A DNA stretch of 12,304 bases from Asterionellopsis glacialis (Eukaryota > Bacillariophyta > Plagiogrammaphyceae > Rhaphoneidales > Asterionellopsidaceae): contig WKLE02000158.1 in the NCBI GenBank assembly GCA_014885115.2, forward strand, positions 1 to 12,304, read 5' to 3'. A program made the position numbers and the translations under genes. Position 1 is the stretch's first letter. Each line of letters begins with the position of its first letter. Below the pieces are notes generated by a model, which was given only the letters and a program-made list of their open reading frames with translations, made no database searches and had not been told where the DNA came from. Positions 1-12,304 of the stretch are shown piece by piece.

Positions 1-325
1 TGGACACTCCTCTCATTTTTTCAAAATCACCACAGGTGACATCACTCCCAAAACTCCCAGTAAATACATCATTTCTAAGAGAAGTGCCTTCAAATCTACG
101 TCTCTTACTGTACCAAAATCCCCGGTCAAAAACGACCGGGAAAATTCCATGTGAACAAGAACCAGGCAAGACGGCAATCAACAAACTGACAATGATGACA
201 GCCATGTTACCAGCCGACGTGACATGTTGTTGATTGTTGTTGTTGGCTGCAGCAACAATAAATAAAAGAGGGGAAAGAACAAGCACAAAGATCTGGGAAA
301 ACGACAACGCGCGAGCGAATGCCAT
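1..325 (-). CDS. Partial secreted or membrane protein, unknown function (3' end outside window)
   Basis: I do not recognise this family. Reading leftward from the ATG at 325-323, the frame is open for 108 codons to the window edge. The upstream in-frame stop is TAA at 439-437, with no other ATG between, which fixes this start. Residues 1-27 form a clear signal peptide: a short Arg-containing n-region, a hydrophobic core (QIFVLVLSPLLFIV) and an AAA before an Asn/Gln-rich stretch. A second hydrophobic segment lies at residues 41-53 (MAVIIVSLLIAVL), followed by a basic patch KRRR at 74-77. The second segment could be a membrane helix. Alternatively a 103-bp intron (GT at 210-209, AG at 109-108) could be removed. 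That version would end at a TGA at 15-13 and give a 69-residue product. I prefer the unspliced reading because the sequence beyond it looks globular. The gene is divergent from the gene starting at 1402. Confidence 0.55.
   Translation of the reverse strand, partial: MAFARALSFSQIFVLVLSPLLFIVAAANNNNQQHVTSAGNMAVIIVSLLIAVLPGSCSHGIFPVVFDRGFWYSKRRRFEGTSLRNDVFTGSFGSDVTCGDFEKMRGVS
121..140. repeat. Perfect short inverted repeat (7-bp stem, 6-nt loop)
   Basis: cccggtc at 121-127 pairs with gaccggg at 134-140 around the loop aaaaac. It is GC-rich in AT-rich surroundings. It lies inside the left-edge coding frame (or inside the alternative intron), so it may be a chance feature of the coding sequence. 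Confidence 0.5.
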
Positions 326-361
326 GCTTGTTCGTGGTATTTTTTGTCGAGCGATTCTCTT

Positions 362-393
362 CGTCGATCGTGCGGGTCGTCGATCGTGCGGGT
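362..393. repeat. 16-bp tandem duplication in the leader of the left-edge gene
   Basis: The unit cgtcgatcgtgcgggt occurs twice in direct succession, at 362-377 and 378-393, and is followed by a related partial copy (cggtcgtcgat, 394-404). It is locally GC-rich and sits 37-68 bp upstream of the ATG at 325 on the minus strand. It is therefore probably in the 5' untranslated leader or core promoter of that gene. It looks like a recent slippage duplication; a regulatory role is not shown. Confidence 0.7.
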
Positions 394-985
394 CGGTCGT
401 CGATTGTAGTTCTCGACAATCAAATATTGAATGTTGTTAGGGTTGATTGATGAGTGTGATGTGGTGCTTGTGGTTTCTTTTACCAAAATAGTTTTGTAGG
501 TTGCTGATTGTTTCATGTAATTATATTAAAAATAAACACTGCTGTGTCCACAAACCTTCTTGCAATGATCATTATTATGTGTTGATTTTTTATTGTTGTT
601 TATTTTGATGTCCTTGTTGCCACTGAATTGTTGTGAACGTGCATTCTATGATTCTTAATTGTACATCAATTGTTGTTTTCACAAGAAGTAACAACCAACT
701 AGTTTGAAAACGACCACCCTCACCATATGAAGCTCTATTCCCACCTCTACACAAACATAACCACTTCACATTCCTTCAAATTACACTCCTGTCTTCCATG
801 GGGATGATGATATATTGTTGACAATTTCCAACTGTTGAACCCAAAGACAGGACCACGTGCCGTGCAAAATTACTAGCAAAAAATGCTCCAACTTCGACTT
901 GTCAAAAAACATACTTCCAGCTGCCCTTTTTTTTCATGACAAAAAGCTTGTTATTCTTCAACGAATTTCTGATAATCCCTGTACC

Positions 986-1045
986 TGGGACCATCCTTAT
1001 CTGCAATGCAATACTGCAAACGGACCACCGTTCGCCATGGTCCCA
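986..1045. repeat. 9-bp perfect inverted repeat, 42-bp spacer
   Basis: tgggaccat at 986-994 is the exact reverse complement of atggtccca at 1037-1045. It lies 357-416 bp upstream of the start at 1402. It could be a paired binding site or the ends of a small decayed element, but no target-site duplication or transposase is visible, so I give no function. Confidence 0.4.
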
Positions 1046-1401
1046 TTTTGTCGTGTAAATATCGCGCTGGCTGCTTAAAAATGTTCGAAAAGCCAAGAAG
1101 GTTGGTACTCGAGTCACGTAGCAAAATGAGTAGGATTTTTTTGTTCCGCCCGAAAAATGCATCGTCCCACCGCCCATTCTCACCAAAAGAATTTTGAGAA
1201 ATGAGAACCCAACCTGTAACGAAGCGATACCGGCGACAAAGCCTTGACACGATATGATGTGCGAATCAAACACTCTTTCACGAACGAGAAGCGACAGTTC
1301 CCAAAAAGCTTTTACGTCAACAACTTCTGATATACCCAGGTCGAATAATAAAAGTGTTACCGTATTTTGAAATTACTTACTAACTATCTTCAAATTATCC
1401 A

Positions 1402-4400
1402 ATGAGTTTAGCGGCAAATGAGAGAAGGTGTAACAATTTAAGAAGAAATGGTGAAGTGAACTCAAAGCGCAACGAGGGTTACCCTGATCACATTAGCCAA
1501 GATGTAATTGAAGCCACTCGACAGGTAGCTTTTTCGATTGCGACTGTTGGTATTGGAGAAAAACAGCCAGTTCATGGATGTCTCTTCATTGTTGGCAATG
1601 CACGGCGTCTTTGCGATCAAAAAGAAAACTTTGGGCGAATAAAAGTGCCTACTATGGACTGTAGTAAGAAGTCCTGGGGCGACAGTAATGAAAAGCGATA
1701 CAACGTTTTCGATTTTGAGAGTCGATCCAACGTTGGCATTAAACTTTTTTGCAGCACTGATGGGGGGCTGGTGATTGATGGTATAACAGGAGATGTATGG
1801 TGTGGAAGTTTTATAGTGAATGATCTAAGTCATGCAAACAGAGAAACCTCTGGCGGTGCTAGAAGTCAGGCTGCATCATCGATAGCTGAACAAGCAGGTG
1901 GCTGCTATGTCATCAAACTTTCTCAAGAGTATTGTGTTAGCGTAGACAAACAACTCCCCGAGGAAGCGGTAATCGAGGTTTACAACTGCACAAATGAGTG
2001 TATCAAAGACCCCATCCCTGTAAAGCATCTAAGCAATAGCAACATTCCCCAGGATCTCATGTTGACTGTTCAACAATTGCTAGAACGTGGTTATAAAAGC
2101 CCACCAGACTTGCAAGAATCAGAAGAATCGGACAGTGATTCATCTATATCAAAGTTTACGCATGTGTCCATAAGTCTGTCGTTAGGGGAAAGATATGAAA
2201 AGGACCTGAAATGGAATGAAAAAATTGCTTCTAGCAAAAATCATATCAACCAACACCTGGACGATATATACAACTTGTTAAGGGGGAGCGGTGCAGAATG
2301 TCCACAAGTTGAAATACAACGAAATAAGAAACGAAAACTTGGCATTCTTAGCGCAGATAAAGTTGTCGTAAAGTTGAAGTGCACTTTGTACTTGTTAGAA
2401 GGCCGCACTGATGAACACACTTTTTACTTGTTAGAAGACCGTACTGATGAACACCTTCAATTAGTAAAAGATGCATGTTTTGGTATTGCAGAAATCCTCA
2501 AAGATGCAGGTGCTGATGAAAATTTGTTGAAAAGAATAATTCGCCCTCCTTGTTTTTACAAGGGATCCATATTTATCCTTCTTGAGGCTCCATTGAAAAT
2601 ATTCAATTTGTTGTTTTCTCTTTTGGTAGAATCTGATACTGCGAATGGTCTCTGTATTGGAGAAAAACGGAGAGAACCAATATATCTCACTTCAATTGCT
2701 CCTTTGTTTCTTGTCGAGACACCGGCAAACATAATATTTCCATACCTAAAGAAAAGTCTTCCTAGTGATGATGTTGACTTGATACCTTTGGAGAAAGCCG
2801 ACATGATACTTTTCAAGGAAAATGATATTACTTTTTTTGTGCCAAAATCGGTAGATACATGGGATAACATTTTTCAGAATAGTAGTGGTCAACTTGAAGA
2901 AGAAATTCGAGAAATTCAGATCAAGACCATTGACTTGAAACATGAGATTGGAAAGCCAGATCAAATCTCCATTAGTATTTCTAAAAAGTCAGCAAAGGGG
3001 GACGGCGAAGAGAGATCAGCCACAACTGAAACTGCTGTGGCAAGTACAACATCACTTCAGCGTGCCGGTATCGAGGCAAATATTTCTAATAAATCGGAAG
3101 ATAAGGGTATTAAATCAATGAAAGCATACACAGACAGACGGTTTCGTTTTGGAATGACCGAGAGTTCAAAGAAACAGTCTATATATTCAGAAAAAGAAGG
3201 TCAACACGGTAGCGAACATCCAAGAAGAATAAATGTTCATATTCCTCAATCCGTCAAAAGAATAAGCGACTATACATACATGAACAAACGATTACTTCGT
3301 TCTATTGAGATTCCAAACTCAGTCACTTCAATAGACAGTTTTGCATTTGATGGTTGTTCGTCTCTTGGATCCATTGAGATTCCAAATTCAGTCACATCAA
3401 TAGGCAAAGCTGCATTTTATGATTGTTCGTATCTTGTATCCATTGAGATTCCAAATTCAGTCACATCAATAGGCGATTATGCATTTGATGGTTGTTCGTC
3501 TCTTGGATCCATTGAGATTCCAAATTCAGTCACATCAATAGGCAGAGGTGCATTTAATGGCTGTTCGTCTCTTGGATCCATTGAGATTCCAAATTCAGTC
3601 ACATCCATAGGCGATCATGCATTTGATGGTTGTTCGTCTCTTGGATCAATTGAGATTCCAAATTCATTCACATCAATAGGCAATTATAATTTTGGTGTAG
3701 ACCACCTCCCATTTTTTAGTTGTTCGTCTCTTGGATCCATTCAGATTCCAAATTCAGTCAAATCAAAAGGCAGAGGTGCATTTTTTGGTTGTTGGTCTCC
3801 TGGATCCATTGAGATTCCAAATTCAGTCACATCAATATGCAAAGATGCATTTAGTGGTTGTAAGTCTCTTGGATCCATTGAGATTCCAAATTCAGTCACA
3901 TCAATAGGCGATTATGCATTTAGTTATTGTTCGTCTCTTGGATCCATTGAGATTCCAAATTCAGTCACATCAATAGGCGATCATGCATTTAGTGGTTGTT
4001 TGTCTCTTGGGACTATTGAGATTCCAAATTCAGTCACATCAATAGGCGATTTTGCATTTGATGGTTGTTCGTCTCTTGGATCCATTGAGATTCCAAATTC
4101 AGTCACATCAATAGGCTATCATGCATTTGATGGTTGTTCGTCTCTTGGATCCATTGAGATTCCAAATTCAGTCACATCAATAGGCATAGATGCATTTAAT
4201 GGTTGTTCTTCTCTTGTATCCATTGAGATTCCAAATTCAGACACGTCAATAAGCTATTCTGTATTTAATGGTTGTTCGTCTCTTGGATACATTGAGATTC
4301 CAAATTCAGTCACATCAATAGACAGTTTTGCATTTCATGGTTGTTCGTCTCTTGGATCCATTGAGATTCCAAATTCAGTCACATCAATAGGTGATTATGC

Positions 4401-5055
4401 ATTTCATGGTTGTTCGTCTCTTGGATCCATTGAGATTCCAAATTCAGTCACATCATTGGGCGATTATGTATTTTATCGTTGTTCGTCTCTCGGATCCTTT
4501 AAGATTCCAAACTCAGTCACATCAATAGGCGGTTATGCATTTTATGGTTGTTCATCTCTTGGATCCATTGAGATTCCAAATTCAGTCACATCAATAGGCA
4601 AAGCTGCATTTCATTGTTGTTCGTCTCTTGGATCCATTGAGATTCCAAATTCAGTCACATCAATAAGCGATTATGCATTTGGTGGTTGTTCGTCTCTTGG
4701 ATACATTGAGATTCCAAATTCAGTCACATCAATAGGCTTTTATTTATTTAATGGTTGTTCGTCTCTTAGATCCATTGAGATTCCAAATTCAGTTACATCA
4801 ATAAGCGATTATGTATGTAATGGTTGTTCATCTCTTGGATCCATTGAGATTCCAAATTCAGTCACATCAATAGGCATAGGTGCATTTAATGGTTGTTCGT
4901 CTCTTGGATCCATTGAGATTCCTAATTCAGTCACATCAATAGGCGATTATGCATTTTATGGTTGTTCGTCTCTTGGATCCATTGAGATTCCAAATTCAGT
5001 CACATCACTAGGCGATAATGCATTTGATGGTTGTTGGTCTCTTGGGACCATTTAG
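1402..5055 (+). CDS. DAC-like (diadenylate cyclase fold) domain fused to a BspA-type LRR array
   Basis: Single open frame of 1217 residues. An in-frame TAA at 1381-1383 makes the ATG at 1402 the first possible start. Residues 36-195 resemble DisA_N/DAC domains of the archaeal DacZ kind. They show a helix leading into [15 protein letters not shown] (matching the PVGxLFVxGD strand), then TDGGLVID at 119-126 (the DGA motif), GARSQAA at 152-158 (the G-x-RHR motif) and a closing helix and strand ([11 protein letters not shown]). Known DAC enzymes condense two ATP to c-di-AMP. Residues 215-610 are unassigned and include an acidic stretch ([10 protein letters not shown], 239-248), a KKRK nuclear-signal-like patch at 309-312 and a 12-residue tandem duplication. 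Residues 611-633 are a degenerate repeat; 634-1215 are 25 repeats of consensus [23 protein letters not shown]. No signal peptide is visible, so the protein is probably intracellular. The fold call is fairly strong; activity is uncertain because the RHR motif is changed. Confidence 0.85.
1507..1986 (+). other. DisA_N/DAC-like domain (residues 36-195)
   Basis: Order of elements seen: amphipathic helix [12 protein letters not shown] (36-47), strand HGCLFIVGN (58-66), a variable insert, then helix [11 protein letters not shown] (112-122) with Asp120 where DAC enzymes place the metal-binding Asp of DGA. A strand LVID and strand DVWCGSFIV follow, then Gly152-Ala-Arg154-Ser155-Gln156 at the G-x-R-H-R position, helix [10 protein letters not shown] and strand CYVIKLSQE. 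Spacing and order match DAC proteins. Departures are Ala to Gly in DGA, His to Ser and the second Arg to Gln. Archaeal-type members, as I recall them, also vary at the last Arg, so Ser for His is the most worrying change. Alignment is by eye from known family motifs. Confidence 0.75.
2386..2457 (+). repeat. 36-bp in-frame tandem duplication
   Basis: Codons 329-340 ([12 protein letters not shown]) are repeated immediately as codons 341-352 ([12 protein letters not shown]). The two 36-bp copies, 2386-2421 and 2422-2457, differ at only a few bases, so the duplication looks recent. It adds 12 residues near the start of the middle region's strand-helix segment without breaking the frame. Confidence 0.85.
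3232..5046 (+). repeat. 69-bp tandem repeats encoding 25 BspA-type LRR units plus one degenerate unit
   Basis: The first unit (3232-3300, residues 611-633, [17 protein letters not shown]...) is diverged. From 3301 to 5046 there are 25 units of 23 codons, nearly identical at the DNA level; most carry the string ggatccattgagattcc, giving a BamHI site about every 69 bp. The consensus matches the Treponema/BspA LRR (LRR_5) pattern with IP, AF and C..L positions. The Cys at unit position 19 is present in all 25. Unit 6 (3646-3735) has a seven-codon insertion (30 residues instead of 23). Unit 22 has Cys for the usual Phe. Differences cluster at unit positions 12-14 and 17-18. The homogeneity implies recent expansion or gene conversion. 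Confidence 0.95.
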
Positions 5056-5106
5056 ATTCCAATCTCATTCACATCAATAGGCTATCTTGCATTTCCTGGT
5101 TCATGA
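5056..5106 (+). pseudogene. Remnant of a 26th LRR unit beyond the stop codon
   Basis: The codon after ATT in the last unit is TAG (5053-5055) where other units have GAG. In the same frame the sequence continues as ATT CCA ... for 16 codons (IPISFTSIGYLAFPGS) to TGA at 5104-5106. This is clearly repeat-derived but shortened and diverged. A single G-to-T change therefore explains the present stop. Readthrough of TAG would add 16 residues plus the residue inserted at the stop; otherwise this is untranslated remnant sequence. Confidence 0.85.
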
Positions 5107-5564
5107 TTAAGTTTTGTGAAATTATTACTCAGGAATGGTTTACTGAAGACTTCACAAGGTTTTTATTGATAATATCGTATGTGTAACATGATTTCGAAAC
5201 GTCTGTTCTACTCATATTGTCAGATCTAATCTAAAATATTTTAATTTATATATTTTGTATGTAGATGCTGGCTCCATAAAGATGAACCATTTTATTGTTG
5301 GCGGTTCTAGGCCATTCTCAAAAATTTCTAAGCACGAGTTTCCAATAAAAAAGTTTCGCGGTCACTCGTATGGAATATAGTCATTATCGTGTTCATCTGT
5401 GGTGTTGAGAAAATCAAAGAGCAAGGCATATCACGAACTCCTGATCAAATCATCAACACAGTCGAAGTAAAGAAGGCACAAGAATTAACATTTTGTCTAA
5501 CTTTAGGTTCTTCCCCAATGAAGAGCAGGGACTATACAAAAAGTATAACCCTGTCATTTGTGGA
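5107..5564. other. Convergent intergenic region (3' ends of two genes)
   Basis: The LRR gene and the armadillo-type gene end toward each other here. The stretch is AT-rich and holds an AATAAA at 5344-5349 that could serve as a plus-strand polyadenylation signal. A frame at 5389-5865 plus runs into the antisense of the armadillo gene and looks like a shadow. I see no RNA gene or mobile element. Confidence 0.5.
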
Positions 5565-8500
5565 TTACATGTCATTTGCTAAATTCTTCAATGCTTCCTT
5601 GACCAAAAACGATGGACTTCCTTCATTATTTTGTCCTACTGGATCTTTTTTGAAACTTGCATGTGTCAAGGCTGTCATTACCAATTCGTTTTGGACCATA
5701 AACTTTCGAGCCGCGGGTTCACGACTAATCATTTCTAATGCAGCAATCGCACTGGCACGAGTATCGGTGTCATTCATGCCTTCCAATAAAGCTAAATTGG
5801 CTAAAGCTTTGAGTAACCCGTCGTGCATCGCCATGGGACGACGATTTTCTGCTAGAGTTGCCTGAGATTTGAAAGCTTCGGCAATACAACTTGTTTTAGT
5901 CCACTGAGACGATACTGTTAAAGCACTTAACAAGGTGCGATGACAGGGCATTGGATAATGAACATCTGCAGCCATCCATTCCAATGCACGAGCGCAGTAT
6001 ACACGAACATCTGCACTATAATCCGTCAAAACAGCACGTGCAATTGATTCAAATAGTCGTGGATGATTACCCATTGTTTCGACTGTTTCCTCTGTGTTGT
6101 TACGTGCCATGTTGAACAACGCCTCACTGGCATTGATCCGTGCCTCATCTACGGGATCTTCCGATAAAACACGTCTCAAGGCTTCTAAAATTTCACCATC
6201 ACAATGACGTGCCATACGTTCTGTATTGGCAACAACACAAGCCAGGGTAAACATAGCAGCTGAGGCGTATCGACGTGTAAAGGGTGACTTGTCACCAATC
6301 AGATGAACCAAAACATCCAACAACCCATCGTGTTCTACCATGGTGACCTTGTTTTCGTCAGCGTATGCTAAATTCATAATCACAATGGCTGCATGTTCTC
6401 TAGCTTCTTCACTCGGGTCATTAAGTGCCAATCTTACCAAGGCATCTAACAACCCCTTGTGATGGACCATTTTCACCTTATTTTCTTCTGCACATGCTAA
6501 ATTCACAATGGTCGCGATAGCATCCACACGTGATGCCGCAAGTTCTGCCTCTTCTTGTCGTTGACTGTATTCATCATTTTCACTCTGATGCTGATCACCT
6601 TCGCCATAGGCAGAAGCACTATCAACAGAGCGTTGGCGATCTAATTGATAAACGAGCGCGTCTAATAATCCTGGATGATGCGCCATGGGGACCATTGCTG
6701 ATAAGACACGTGAAAAGTATCGTAAGACTTGTAATAACTGTGCTACAGCAATAGGATTGGTAGGTTCTTCCACACGAATCATATCCAACTCATTCCTCAT
6801 TTGGTCTGCTTCTTGTTGACCACGTAATTCACGCTGTTGCAAAGCAGCCCTCAAGGATTTGGCAGTAGTAGCTCCACTTCCCGAGGTTGATGATGTATGT
6901 GCAGTAATGGTAGATCTTGCACCTACAACAGTCCCCGAAACACGTGAGGACACAATCGATGATGCTGCATCTTCATCACCCTCCATGACTGTTTCTAATT
7001 CCTGGTCATTCATTGGTACATTATTTGTATTGTACTCAGAGTACGTTTCATAGGATGTTGTTTCTTCATCTACGTCTGATAATACTGTTTCAACTTCATA
7101 TTGATGACGATTTCCACTTCTACCTGTAGTGGTAGTTCCATTACCGGTAGATCGGCTTTGCTTACTGTTCGAATCTGTCACACTACCTGATGGTGCAAGG
7201 TATGTATCACCTGCCTTGGTTGATATACCAAAGGTATCATCATCTTTTAAGGTTGCTGCTGTCGACTGTCCCGATTTGGCAGCAGATGATGCCAACGTTT
7301 TAGATAAGGATGATTGACCATACGAATCCATCATGGTTGATTCATCTCCAGGACGGGTAGATTCTTCGTTATAGGCACTGTTTCCATATTCTGTCTCTGT
7401 CTCTTGATCATCGTGGTAATCACCGTCATCATGGTTGTTGTTACCTTGTTGGAGTTGTTGTTCTCTCATTTTGGCTACAGCAAGTTCTTTCAAGGCTTCT
7501 TCTAGTTCTTCTTGTCGTTTGACATGTAGAGGTTTACCCAGCATTTCCACAAATAAAGGTAATATAGATTCCCTTAATTCTGAAAAACTCAATGCAATGC
7601 GAGACCGGCTTGCACGGTACACCATTTCCAGAGCTGTACAAATCAAGGCCACCTCATCTGATCCACGATCTACCTGAAAGGCAAATGCCAGTTTTTGAAA
7701 TAAAATCTTATCGGCATGCAAATCCAACTCTTCATCGTGCTTGTATTCATCATCATGATCAAATTCAGCCACAGCTGTCCGTAATGCCATTAATCGATGT
7801 TCACGTGGTGCAATGGCTGAATTTAAATCTGTTTCATATATATATATAATATATATATTGTAAAAGGAAATTCGTATAACAACAGAAATGAAAGTTGTCC
7901 GTAGATGTGTGTGAGAATTGGAAATTCGAGAAAGTTATTACAATAGGATCAGATATGAATTCATTTTTTTTCATGGTATCCTGTGTGCTGGTTGGAAAAA
8001 AAGGAGAGCTAAAACCCGCGCTATACACTTTTGGCTGCAAAAGATACCATTTCAGTATCTTTTTTTCTTTTTCCAACCTCTCCACAAGGACATTTGTGTT
8101 CCAGGTAAAGCACATTAGGAAAGCCTGGTAGGGCACAAGAACAATTTGGTCCAACGATACCATTTCAAAAGCACGGTGACAATTACACGGTCCAGATGGA
8201 TGCCGACGTGTACATTGATAATATCGAGAAAAAAAGATACAATCGAAAGAAAGAGGTATCTTCCACAAGTGCACTGCAGGGAAAGAGAAGGAGACTGCAT
8301 TACACCAAACTCACCATAGAGAATAAGTTTCAAGACATCACCGCGACGTTCATCTTCAACGTTGGGACCCACCGAAGCTCCACCGCCTCCACCCATAATC
8401 ATGGTGCTCATGTTAGCGACGTCACCTCCACAATCAGCTGTGAAGTTGCTGTCGTACTTGAAGTGTAGGTCAACAACGAATTCCTCTCCCCGTCTCTCTG

Positions 8501-8733
8501 AAAGGTAGTCTATGTATGAATGGGTGACAGTCGGTAAGGTATTCTTCGTCTCTCCACCTGCACTTGTATTGATCACACGAAAGTCACAAGTGCTGCAAGG
8601 ATTCTAGTCTTAGAGTCCTGCCTGCGAAGACAATGGTTATGATATGCTACTGTATAATTCCGCTAGATGTGTTTGTGCCTCCTCCATGGAAAGATGCCTG
8701 ATAACTGTGACTCGAGGGCAGAGGGTTGTCCAT
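5565..8733 (-). CDS. Armadillo-like helical-repeat protein (three exons inferred)
   Basis: The certain part is 7790-5565 (741 residues from the ATG at 7790). The region around residues 346-383, and especially 417-740 of that part, holds several ARM-type helical repeats of about 42 residues, with recurring motifs such as ATIVNLACAEENKVKMV, GLLDALVRLA and AAIVIMNLAYADENK. Before them come a conserved-looking N-terminal helical block (1-85), a Glu/Lys/Gln-rich coiled-coil-like segment (91-115) and an acidic Ser/Thr-rich linker (116-310). Upstream the frame stays open with sensible sequence (IAPREHRL). I infer join(8733-8651, 8592-8315, 7828-5565), about 874 residues: introns start GTAGCA and GTGAGT, end CTTGCAG and AAACAG, and all phases match. 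ARM proteins are protein-binding scaffolds; no specific partner can be named, and no signal peptide is visible. If the 5' exons are wrong, the gene starts at 7790. Confidence 0.8.
7829..8314 (-). other. Inferred intron 2 (486 bp) with two possible acceptors
   Basis: The donor is GTGAGT at 8314-8309. Two acceptors in the same phase exist: AAACAG ending at 7829 and ATTCAG ending at 7817. The choice changes the protein by four residues (DLNS). The intron is long for this kind of genome, and AT-rich near its end with a TA palindrome at 7836-7859. An additional internal exon is possible; open frames inside (for example 7834-8274 minus) look non-coding to me. Confidence 0.5.
7836..7859. repeat. Self-complementary TA dinucleotide repeat
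   Basis: An almost uninterrupted AT/TA run of 24 bp that can fold on itself, immediately upstream (on the minus strand) of the putative acceptor for the main armadillo exon. It probably arose by slippage. Confidence 0.7.
8315..8592 (-). other. Inferred exon 2 of the armadillo-type gene
   Basis: Open frame of 92 codons with protein-like composition (THSYIDYLSERRGEEFVVDL, GGGGGASVGPNVEDERRGDV) and no ATG near its 5' edge, preceded by a good acceptor (CCTTGCAG). It ends KLILY before G^GTGAGT, a near-perfect donor. The last base is phase 1, exactly what the acceptors ahead of the main exon need. Confidence 0.6.
8593..8650 (-). other. Inferred intron 1 (58 bp)
   Basis: GTAGCATATC at the 5' end and CCTTGCAG at the 3' end, with a branch-point-like CTAAGAC in between. 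The donor is not a strong consensus. The length is short but usable for compact algal introns. It joins phase 2 to phase 1 and removes in-frame stops (including TAG at 8606-8604). Confidence 0.45.
8651..8733 (-). other. Inferred exon 1 of the armadillo-type gene
   Basis: ATG at 8733-8731 opens 27 codons (MDNPLPSSHSYQASF...) ending in phase 2 (CA) before a GTAGCA donor at 8650. A stop (TAG) follows at once if unspliced. Joining to C at 8592 restores a His codon and an open frame. It is too short to judge coding bias; support comes from phase fit and from exon 2 lacking its own ATG start. Confidence 0.5.
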
Positions 8734-9604
8734 CCTTTCTTTTCTTCTCATAAAAATCCATATGAAGTATTATTGGATCTTTTTTTAGTTATATAAAAAA
8801 AGTCCAGATCTGTCTTCTTTGAAGGATTCTACATGGAAGACTACTCGGGTAGAATAACTGTAGAGATCAATATTAAGTATTACCCATGTATGTTCGACAA
8901 GAAGATATCTTTTATAACAATCACATATACATAATCACGTTATATATATATATAGATGAATAATTTCGGAAGAGGATTCCGATCACGTCGTCATTCATCT
9001 TTCATAATCCTTCAAGGTGATGAGATTAGCTTCCGCAGATGACGACAAGGTCTGTTATTACTTAAAGGATTAGTCTTAGTCCTACTTAGTGCCAAATTTA
9101 GTCCATTGTACATGTATCTTATACGAAAAGTACTTTATGTAAAATATATTCTTTAATGACTGTGACTTTTACAGTCAGAACGTCTGGTTGTCTTCCGATA
9201 TTCATCAAAATCAATAAGGAAAGAGTTAGTGTATTCTTTATTTGAATCCAACATAGCAAGAGCGTCTGTTTGTCGCCAATAATAGATGGACGTACGTGGT
9301 TGCTCTTTTTCATAAAATAATGAATCACAAAAGATTTGTGCTTCGCTCAACATCATTATTATCGTCTCCTTGTCCATTCTTCTCGAGAGTGTGTGCGGAA
9401 CTTCTAGAGAGAGAGCCTTCGTACGAGATTGTCTTTCTCGTCCTGCTTCGTCGTCATCGACATCAACATTGCCTCCCGTTCATTATTTCTCGTGGGTTGA
9501 ATTTGATTCGTACCGGTCGTAAAACATATAATTGGCTTGTTCAGTTTTCAAGTCCGCAGACTGTGTTCGTGTTGGTCTGTCTAACCTTTGTGGTACCCAA
9601 TATT
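8734..9604. promoter_or_regulatory. Divergent intergenic/promoter region between the armadillo-type and SET genes
   Basis: This 871-bp AT-rich stretch must hold the promoters of both genes. It contains a 9-bp inverted repeat (cttttttta at 8779-8787 with taaaaaaag at 8794-8802), a TA run at 8941-8954 and an 8-bp inverted repeat (gtcgtcat at 8987-8994 with atgacgac at 9039-9046). The frame of the SET gene is open back to about 9257, with an in-frame ATG at 9320. I treat this as leader, not protein. No RNA gene is seen. Confidence 0.5.
8941..8954. repeat. TA dinucleotide repeat
   Basis: Seven consecutive TA units within the intergenic region upstream of the SET-domain gene. It is a simple microsatellite; a TATA-like role is possible but it lies more than 600 bp from the chosen start. 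Confidence 0.8.
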
Positions 9605-11359
9605 ATGATGATGCGCTCTTCTGTAGGTTTCTCATCATCTTTCATAGCTTTACCGCTGTGTTTGATTTTGTCAACATCAACGGTGATTAATGGATTTACA
9701 CCAAGTCTTCCATTAACCAAAGTGACATCAAATCCATCCTTTATTCATCCTCGCTACACAAACAACAATCATAACAATCATTTCAAACAATCATCATGGT
9801 CACCTTTGATTTTATATGATGCTACCACGGCTTCCACAGACTATCTTGAATCTGTGTCACAAACCTTGGAACAAAGTACATTGGAAAGTGGTGGCAGTGG
9901 AAAGAAAATATCGGACATTACCAAAACATGTAAAGTTCAAGTGGGACCATCTAAATCTGGACATCGGTTAGGATTAGTTGCAACATCACAAATTAAAAAG
10001 GGCGAGGTTATGTTATCCATGCCATATGATGATTTATTTGTCTTGACACCTGAACTTGCCAAGAAACAAGTCTTTGCCGAGAGATTACCAGAGGGTTACG
10101 ATGGATGGACAGGTGATGTTGGATTCATTGCCATGTTGGTTTTAAATGAACTTGCCAAAGCTTCTTCTAACGGCGGTGGTATTCCATTACCTAAACGTAG
10201 TGCAATGATTGATAACTTTATGGCATCATGGGTCAAATGCTTGCCATCCTTGGAGGAGATGAAAAGTCTTCATCCATTGTTATGGTCCGAAGACGATCAA
10301 GAAATATTACAATCATCGTCCACCTCCAAAATATATCAATCCTTGGATGATTGTGAGGAAGATGCAACATGGTTAATTGAACGTATTTGGTCGAAAGATC
10401 GACAAACATTTCCGGAATATGTAACATTGGGAAATGCTGAAGAAGAAATCCCATGCTTTACCACAGACGGATTCAAATGGGCAATGGCAATTGCACAATC
10501 CAGAAGTGTCTTTACAGATGGATCATTACGGTTAATCCCCTACATGGATATGTGTAATCACAATGACCGCAATACACAAGAAGTGACAGGTGGTTTCATG
10601 GGAACATTCGGTACAACCAAGGGTGCGCAATTGACTGCTGCACAAGATTATAGTATTGGTGATGAAGTATTTTGTTCCTACGGACCAAAGTCAGCAGCAG
10701 ACTATTTGTTGGAGCATGGATTTTGTCCGCCACAAACATTCAAAACCGCCGTTTCTGAATTAACATTTGAATTAGATTCAGAGGATCGTTTTTATGATGA
10801 CAAATTAGATATATTGGAATTTGAAACATACGAATTGGCACCCATGGATCCTGTCCAATCGTTTGATATTGTAAGTGAAATCGGACGTGATGGTGAACCA
10901 GATCCTGCCATGATTCAATTCGTACGACTCTGCAAGGTGGGAGGTACAGATTCTTTCTTGTTGGAAAGTATTTTTCGCAAAGAAGTTTGGGGTTTCATGT
11001 CACTACCAGTCAGTGAACCCAATGAACTAGCAGTAACGAATACGATTATTGATGCATGTCAAAAAGCATTGGATGATATGGCACAAGCAGGTAGTAGTAA
11101 TGATGATAGTGATGCTGAAACATTGGGAGTAAATGCCCAAGTTTGTAAACAATTACGTGAATCTGAAACAAAAGCCTTGACACGTACAATGGAATATTTA
11201 CTACGTGAAAAGGAAGCATTAGATTTGAAGGAATACTATCAAGAACGTCGTCTTAAAGACTTGGGCTTAGATTCAGAATGGGCACCTGAAGATGATGTCA
11301 ACCCTGATCTTGGTTTCGGACAAACAAGATTACCTGGAGGGGCTGATTATGACTGGTAG
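9605..11359 (+). CDS. SET-domain protein lysine methyltransferase, Rubisco LSMT/SETD3 type, probably plastid-targeted
   Basis: From the ATG at 9605 the product is 584 residues. The first SET segment is at 119-140 (GHRLGLVATSQIKKGEVML). The large LSMT-type insertion follows, then RSVFTDGSLRLIPYMDMCNH at 300-319 (the R-x-F...P..D..NH core) and GDEVFCSYGPKSAADYLLEH at 352-371, with the family's catalytic-type Tyr359. A C-terminal substrate-binding-like helical region (about 380-560) completes the LSMT plan. Residues 1-30 read as a signal peptide ending VING before Phe31 (FTPSLP), followed by a Ser/Asn/His-rich transit-like stretch, as in diatom plastid pre-sequences. Family members use S-adenosylmethionine to methylate lysines, in plants on Rubisco small subunit or plastid aldolase; the substrate here is unknown. 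Translation from ATG 9320 would add 95 residues and hide the signal peptide, so I prefer 9605. Confidence 0.88.
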   Translation: MMMRSSVGFSSSFIALPLCLILSTSTVINGFTPSLPLTKVTSNPSFIHPRYTNNNHNNHFKQSSWSPLILYDATTASTDYLESVSQTLEQSTLESGGSGKKISDITKTCKVQVGPSKSGHRLGLVATSQIKKGEVMLSMPYDDLFVLTPELAKKQVFAERLPEGYDGWTGDVGFIAMLVLNELAKASSNGGGIPLPKRSAMIDNFMASWVKCLPSLEEMKSLHPLLWSEDDQEILQSSSTSKIYQSLDDCEEDATWLIERIWSKDRQTFPEYVTLGNAEEEIPCFTTDGFKWAMAIAQSRSVFTDGSLRLIPYMDMCNHNDRNTQEVTGGFMGTFGTTKGAQLTAAQDYSIGDEVFCSYGPKSAADYLLEHGFCPPQTFKTAVSELTFELDSEDRFYDDKLDILEFETYELAPMDPVQSFDIVSEIGRDGEPDPAMIQFVRLCKVGGTDSFLLESIFRKEVWGFMSLPVSEPNELAVTNTIIDACQKALDDMAQAGSSNDDSDAETLGVNAQVCKQLRESETKALTRTMEYLLREKEALDLKEYYQERRLKDLGLDSEWAPEDDVNPDLGFGQTRLPGGADYDW

Positions 11360-12304
11360 ATTGTAAGAGTAGTCTAGCAGTAAACATACAATCATCCTTT
11401 ATTATTATTTCAGTTTACCTATTAAGAATTGAGTACAACTATTTTTCTTTGCTGTAATACTGGACTGAATGGCGAATCAATGGTTGAATTCTTGAAGCAA
11501 GTGTAGATACAAAGTCCTCCTTCATAGATAGTGGTTGTTGTTCCAACTATTCTTGTGCACAAACAATTTTTCTGGCTCAGTGATTGGCATGCTCGGGTAC
11601 AGTATACTTTGCAACAGTGTCTCTCCATCTTTCTATCTTTGTGGTTTTTGAGAAGATGTAAGGTTACCTCTATATTGGGTACTTGTATTGAGATCCCTTC
11701 TTCTTCTCTACAGTATGGCCCTTTTTTGTTAGTTCAAAGCACTCTAGTCAATTTTTTTCTGCAAAAATCACCTCAAAATTTGGTTTCACTTGCCATGGTC
11801 ATAGCTTCTTGAGGAAATATCCTGGCTACAATAGTCTAGGATACCTTAAAGGAGAGAAGGCTATGATGCTTTTCCCATCACACATCACTTTCATGGATAG
11901 AGACTGCTCAGACAGATGAAAAATATATTTGACCTCACAATGACAGGTGACAATGATGAATTCGTTCCTAAAAACTAAAGTTTGTGGACATGGAACAAAT
12001 TGTGATGATAACATTTGGGGAAGATCACTCAGATGAAGAATTTTAATTGAATTTATAAATTGTTTAATGTTGAGTACTTATTGTTTGCATCAACACATTT
12101 GAACATTGATTCTTTGGTGTCATAGACGAACAATTTTAAGAGAATTTATAAATAATTCCCAAGAAATGGAAATGGCAGAAGACAAAAGTGATCATGCTTG
12201 AGCAGATAACATTCGTCAAGCCCCAAAGCCATCTAACATGGATCCCTCTGTTTTGTTTTTTTTTGGTCACATCTAGAGAGCATCTAGAGTCATTGGTGAC
12301 CATG
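11360..12304. other. AT-rich right flank, no supported gene
   Basis: The region begins with the 3' untranslated part of the SET gene. Short open frames (11531-11812 plus, 11826-12014 minus, 11422-11628 minus) have no recognisable features and sit opposite other frames. At the right edge a minus-strand frame is open from 12304 for about 50 codons, but its composition is not persuasive. A 7-bp inverted repeat (tggtcac 12264-12270, gtgacca 12296-12302) encloses two copies of catctagag. Confidence 0.5.

Follow-up and report, generated by a model that had tools for sequence, protein, structure and literature searches.

A remote relative of the diadenylate cyclase domain joined to NLR-like and repeat scaffolds in Asterionellopsis glacialis

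Diadenylate cyclase (DAC) domains are known as the bacterial and archaeal enzymes of cyclic di-AMP (c-di-AMP), and STAND scaffolds commonly carry enzyme heads. Two conserved motifs of DAC domains, DGA and RHR, are needed for ligand binding (accessible part of PMC8573169). In the Mycobacterium tuberculosis enzyme, changing RHR to AAA abolished both ATP binding and c-di-AMP production, whereas a G73A change in the DGA motif had no such effect (portion of PMC3328451 at hand). Here, we describe a gene of Asterionellopsis glacialis, located at positions 1402-5055 of the forward strand of the window, by which we mean the whole 12,304-nt stretch analyzed (contig WKLE02000158.1, positions 1-12,304 forward, assembly GCA_014885115.2). 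Its product joins a DAC-like head, through a middle region, to an array of BspA-type leucine-rich repeats (LRRs). The same head is fused elsewhere to NB-ARC and TPR, to a STAND nucleoside triphosphatase (NTPase) of the NPHP3_N type and WD40, to TPR, and to CHAT and WD40. We think it probable that the head is a DAC-related signaling module with a nucleotide pocket, its catalysis altered or lost, which is controlled by the recognition scaffold of NLR-like or repeat proteins. Among the titles and abstract starts of the matches listed from the open-license literature, no eukaryotic family with a DAC head on an NLR scaffold is described. DAC domains and NLR scaffolds are each known already, and judging from the sequences, it is their union in eukaryotes that would be new.

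A DAC-related head on receptor-like scaffolds

As the earlier note on this DNA had claimed, head and LRRs lie in a single uninterrupted frame, with the following features.

1402 to 5055, + strand: whole gene, one open frame from ATG to TAG, 1217 amino acids plus stop
1483 to 2019, + strand: DAC-like head, residues 28-206 (identity to paralogs, PDB profile search, model comparison)
1759 to 1767, + strand: D120-G121-G122, aligned with the DGA motif of DisA
1852 to 1869, + strand: G151-G152-A153-R154-S155-Q156, aligned with the G-x-R-H-R segment of DisA
2020 to 3228, + strand: middle region, residues 207-609 (family scans, Walker A check, genome search, fold prediction)
3229 to 5052, + strand: BspA-type LRR array, one divergent unit and about 25 units (LRR_5 match, unit count)
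5056 to 5103, + strand: remnant of a further repeat unit after the TAG stop (repeat analysis and sequence)

The head family has six members, namely five genes of the organism's own genome (searched over 40.3 Mb in 1503 contigs) and P0001, an MMETSP (marine eukaryote) transcript protein of 1395 amino acids that is marked complete. A trimmed profile of all six heads (A3) retrieved just three matches from the PDB, all of them diadenylate cyclases, at E-values of 0.38-1.2; two cytochrome c' rows that had stood above DisA with an earlier profile (A1) were gone. Aligned by hhalign with seven DisA sequences, the head profile did better than 300 of 300 shuffles, with the motifs in register. The seven (H1, H3, H4, H16, H18, H19, and H20) were taken from 20 plasmid records, 12 Clostridioides rows and H2 being left out. 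A structure model of the head, although of low confidence (predicted local distance difference test, pLDDT, of 41.7), matched DAC structures far better than other folds. By profile and by model alike, the closest solved structures are diadenylate cyclases. The homology that had been read earlier from motifs in the translation (residues 56-66, 119-126, and 152-171) is thus upheld by concurring tests at the family level: the head belongs to the remote relatives of the DAC fold, with the caveat of that low pLDDT and those PDB E-values.

The five genomic copies lie on five contigs, in differing fusions, and none has a stop within the matched stretch. Besides the window gene (C71), C699 encodes the head, an NB-ARC domain (34.4 bits, cut-off 23.5) and a TPR array, and C1188 the head and then a TPR array, while C296 has the order CHAT, head, WD40, CHAT (CHAT at 25.0 and 26.5 bits, cut-off 24) and C1312 shows the head only before the contig ends. 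For C1188 and C296, the domain content is drawn from the 25 families listed out of 33 and 45, respectively, that matched. In P0001, the head precedes an NPHP3_N-type STAND NTPase (95.2 bits, cut-off 24.8) and WD40. A STAND NTPase is therefore seen in at least two of the six members (C699 and P0001), and repeats stand behind the head in five (LRR, TPR, TPR, WD40, and WD40), the sixth, C1312, being cut by the contig end. The frame of C296 (L008, 2937-7271) spans 1445 residues, with CHAT at both ends around the DAC-like head and WD40.

The window head is 43-55% identical to its four paralogs and 54% identical to P0001 over the aligned part. Since identity among the five genomic heads (43-65%) resembles that to P0001 (44-59%), the copies are old compared with the divergence from the source of P0001. 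The own genome also has an NPHP3_N-type STAND NTPase 49% identical to that of P0001 with no DAC-like head in frame (C906; L039, 2489-4261). The head thus bears the marks, at the level of sequence, of a module shuffled among NLR-like scaffolds, and the receptor-like layout proposed from the window gene alone is strengthened by the paralogs with NB-ARC, TPR, WD40, and CHAT and by the transcript with a STAND NTPase. L039 also matches a TANC1-type winged helix (28.7 bits, cut-off 27), and further NB-ARC matches occur in long open frames of the genome at L040 (C480), L041 (C1323), L042 (C1386), and L043 (C965).

The repeat array of the window protein matches LRR_5 at E 2.3e-208 (680.9 bits, cut-off 27.7). 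The count of 25 units made earlier holds: 25 unit starts are present, all but one of the 24 intervals between them measure 23 residues, and a divergent extra unit (residues 610-632) lies ahead of them. In the DNA, this is a 69-bp tandem array at 3304-5101. A degenerate unit continues past the TAG, to 5103, which looks as though a stop within the last repeats had truncated the gene. Our repeat analysis used 23 of the 25 units, leaving out the last unit and the one with a 30-residue interval; a second analysis with a looser motif also kept 23. Within the unit, entropy is highest at positions 14, 15, and 18, at about 2.5 bits, followed by positions 13 and 19 (1.2 and 1.0). The ratio of non-synonymous to synonymous differences (pN/pS) was 1.46 over all 23 positions. 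At positions 14, 15, 18, and 19, which have at least five residue types, it reached 5.3, a value biased because these positions were picked from the very units being measured; the looser-motif units gave 3.0. At four positions chosen instead from the array of C42, it was 2.07. The arrays of C42 and C101 themselves gave 0.85 and 0.55 over all positions. In the fungal HET-type WD family, repeats are highly similar internally and diversified at four positions per repeat (available part of PMC4986451); the variation in the window array appears to resemble this, though selection cannot be proven from a single genome. BspA-type LRRs are also matched elsewhere in the genome, at L044 (C42), L045 (C101), L046 (C1470), L047 (C1315), and L048 (C474), the last three, with fewer than four units, being excluded from the repeat analysis.

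Neither Pfam nor NCBIfam matched the middle region in the piece scanned (residues 234-613). The region also had no relative in the own genome (residues 207-609) and no confident fold when predicted from the single sequence (pLDDT 34.7), and there is no Walker A motif in residues 1-632. By the NTPase criterion, therefore, the window protein itself is not an NLR. The whole-protein Pfam scan gave a sub-threshold DUF3464 match over residues 589-676, together with chance-like matches within the repeats. A 36-bp tandem duplication of two copies (91% match) lies inside the middle region, at 2382-2454.

The nucleotide pocket and what the head may do

The position of the DGA motif reads DGG in all six heads, and RHR reads R-S-Q in the window and R[SGT][QKA] across the family; the seven DisA sequences compared all have DGA and RHR. 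The first arginine of RHR is retained in every member, the histidine and second arginine in none. D120, G121, R154, and S174 are invariant; the stretches that hold the two motifs are invariant at 25 of 46 positions, the rest of the domain at 26 of 133. Conservation is poor in an insert of about 50 residues that separates the first strand from the DGG segment (6 of 50 invariant). It is highest in the pocket segments, and on that ground the head has probably kept the ability to bind a ligand such as a nucleotide; the loss of RHR makes c-di-AMP synthesis of the ordinary kind unlikely. We read this pattern as suggesting that the pocket matters while the standard chemistry has not been conserved. 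A working c-di-AMP synthase, toward which the earlier note pointed, is accordingly not supported, RHR and DGA both being kept in none of the six members and RHR being essential in the M. tuberculosis enzyme (PMC3328451, in the part cited above). A canonical DAC enzyme was rejected on the same two substitutions.

On the reading that we favor, the variable surface of the repeat array would recognize a ligand, the NTPase, in those members that have one, would act as a switch, and recognition would alter the oligomeric state so that the heads are drawn together. Known DAC domains require a head-to-head pair for c-di-AMP formation (PMC8573169, accessible part). Once clustered, the heads might pass the signal on through nucleotide binding or through a modified form of nucleotidyl transfer. 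Within this reading, we put binding alone slightly above an even chance and consider it somewhat likelier than synthesis; altered chemistry is a tentative second, and anything else is doubtful. An immune role for the family may be indicated by its layout and by the variation among the repeats, as far as sequence can suggest one.

A rival that we regard as rather unlikely is an active eukaryotic dinucleotide synthase, which upon clustering would make c-di-AMP or another (perhaps cyclic) dinucleotide, with residues other than RHR contacting the phosphate. The four invariant residues and the well-conserved pocket segments would suit such an enzyme, as would the frequency of enzyme heads on STAND scaffolds. 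It has to contend with the absence of the histidine and second arginine, and of DGA, from every member, and with the essential role of RHR in the enzyme tested (PMC3328451, same part). Only marginally less plausible, and still unlikely, is the more specific proposal of an NLR-type immune family with a DAC-derived cyclase head of altered chemistry, in which clustering by LRR, TPR, or WD40 would lead to a nucleotide second messenger.

It is less likely again that the head is a dead DAC fold, free of nucleotide and kept solely as a protein-protein or oligomerization module. Loss of the catalytic motif is compatible with this, and for inactive cyclase-like domains of bacterial conflict systems, roles in binding nucleotides or as dominant-negative regulators have been discussed (PMC7159879, in the part available). 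However, conservation is concentrated on the segments that match the nucleotide site of DisA in the alignment, and a domain serving purely as a scaffold could do without these.

If the favored reading is correct, eukaryotic intracellular receptors would have a new signaling module, a DAC-related head swappable on NLR-like scaffolds; algae, probably diatoms, would gain a candidate recognition system; and the use of DAC-derived nucleotide signals by non-animal eukaryotes would become testable. If the head were a cyclase of altered chemistry, eukaryotes would have a nucleotide-based alarm system that did not arise from cGAS.

Chance likeness, foreign origin, and the setting of the gene

Single-sequence searches of the head were weak. 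Pfam DAC (PF02457) scored residues 117-176 of the window protein at E 0.21 and 11.6 bits, against a cut-off of 27 (single sequence, 233-residue piece), and was not among the seven families listed in the whole-protein scan. Of the two comparisons proposed earlier for the N-terminal part, that with structures upheld the DAC likeness, through a low-confidence model, and that with Pfam stayed below the cut-off. The head of C1188 reached 16.7 bits, also below the gathering cut-off of 27, and the remaining members gave best E-values of 0.0024 and 0.0041 in two scans, implying sub-threshold scores. The Pfam DAC model had no match in the own genome, and the family model alone therefore misses the head copies. 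A single head sequence had no match in the PDB; the NCBIfam scan of the head returned TIGR02594 alone (E 0.12, far under its cut-off), and PADLOC gave matches that were weak or fell on the repeat parts. That sub-threshold Pfam score and the empty single-sequence PDB search are what a chance convergence of short motifs would produce, but we consider this very improbable, given that hhalign, model comparison, PDB profile, and Pfam scans all point to the same family, the hhalign and PDB profile alignments in the same register.

Outside this genome, the only relative found was P0001, one of 310 candidates in our third search of a protein collection. There, a long query gave no match at E <= 0.001 among 7990 candidates scored, and alignment A1 none at E <= 1 among 2613. 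Two-pattern scans of limited sensitivity gave 29 and 26 pattern matches in a prokaryote genome collection and 399 in each of two scans of IMG/VR viral contigs, with no relative confirmed in either. A DisA fragment had no match in phage records and one short match in viral contigs (L017), which was not used.

DAC domains typically belong to bacteria and archaea, and LRR_5 occurs in bacteria too (3 of 14 control genomes), so a bacterial DAC gene fused to a eukaryotic LRR gene by contamination or chimeric assembly might be imagined; with the head on five contigs in different fusions, no stop in the match, a eukaryote transcript carrying it, no prokaryote relative confirmed in the two pattern scans, and codon usage correlating with that of the two neighbor genes (head, 0.72; middle, 0.86; LRR part, 0.56), this is scarcely credible. 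Several fusions in one genome and a marine eukaryote transcript indicate a shuffled module rather than a contaminant. Contamination and a chance motif match were both rejected on this family-level and genomic evidence, in agreement, for contamination, with the earlier note. The eukaryotic setting that it had described is also supported, by a + strand neighbor with SET and Rubisco-LSMT domains, both over their cut-offs, and by the MMETSP transcript; the ARM/HEAT matches of the - strand neighbor are below their cut-offs.

Comparison with known systems

The window array, with its 23-residue units and strong family match, is like those of BspA-type LRR proteins (LRR_5), but is placed behind a DAC-like head. 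DACN-type sensor domains (DACNV) are DAC-derived, have no active site and are predicted nucleotide sensors. In Pfam scans of the heads, DAC was the sole family of this kind returned, the presence of DACN-type families in the library being unchecked, and a literature search on DACN-type names found nothing relevant. With the diadenylate cyclases themselves (DisA, CdaA/DacA, and CdaM/DacM; PF02457), the heads share, in the same order, the GxLFIVG core strand, D-G, the first R, and then a helix and a strand ending in S. They differ in having DGG for DGA, Rxx for RHR, the insert of about 50 residues and receptor-type fusion partners.

Bacterial conflict systems likewise couple a domain for nucleotide signaling to a scaffold that acts as sensor, but theirs are cyclic nucleotide monophosphate (cNMP) cyclases rather than DAC (as far as the part of PMC7159879 available goes), and no prokaryote sequence relative was confirmed in the two pattern scans. 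Fungal NLR-like STAND proteins combine NACHT or NB-ARC with WD40, TPR, or ANK. They differ from the present family in that its head is DAC-related, a class unnamed in the available part of PMC4986451, and in that the window protein carries LRRs, with no NTPase to be detected in it. They are alike in carrying a swappable N-terminal module on an NTPase and repeats (PMC4986451, same part), and in that related NTPases occur with and without a given head, as P0001 and C906 do here.
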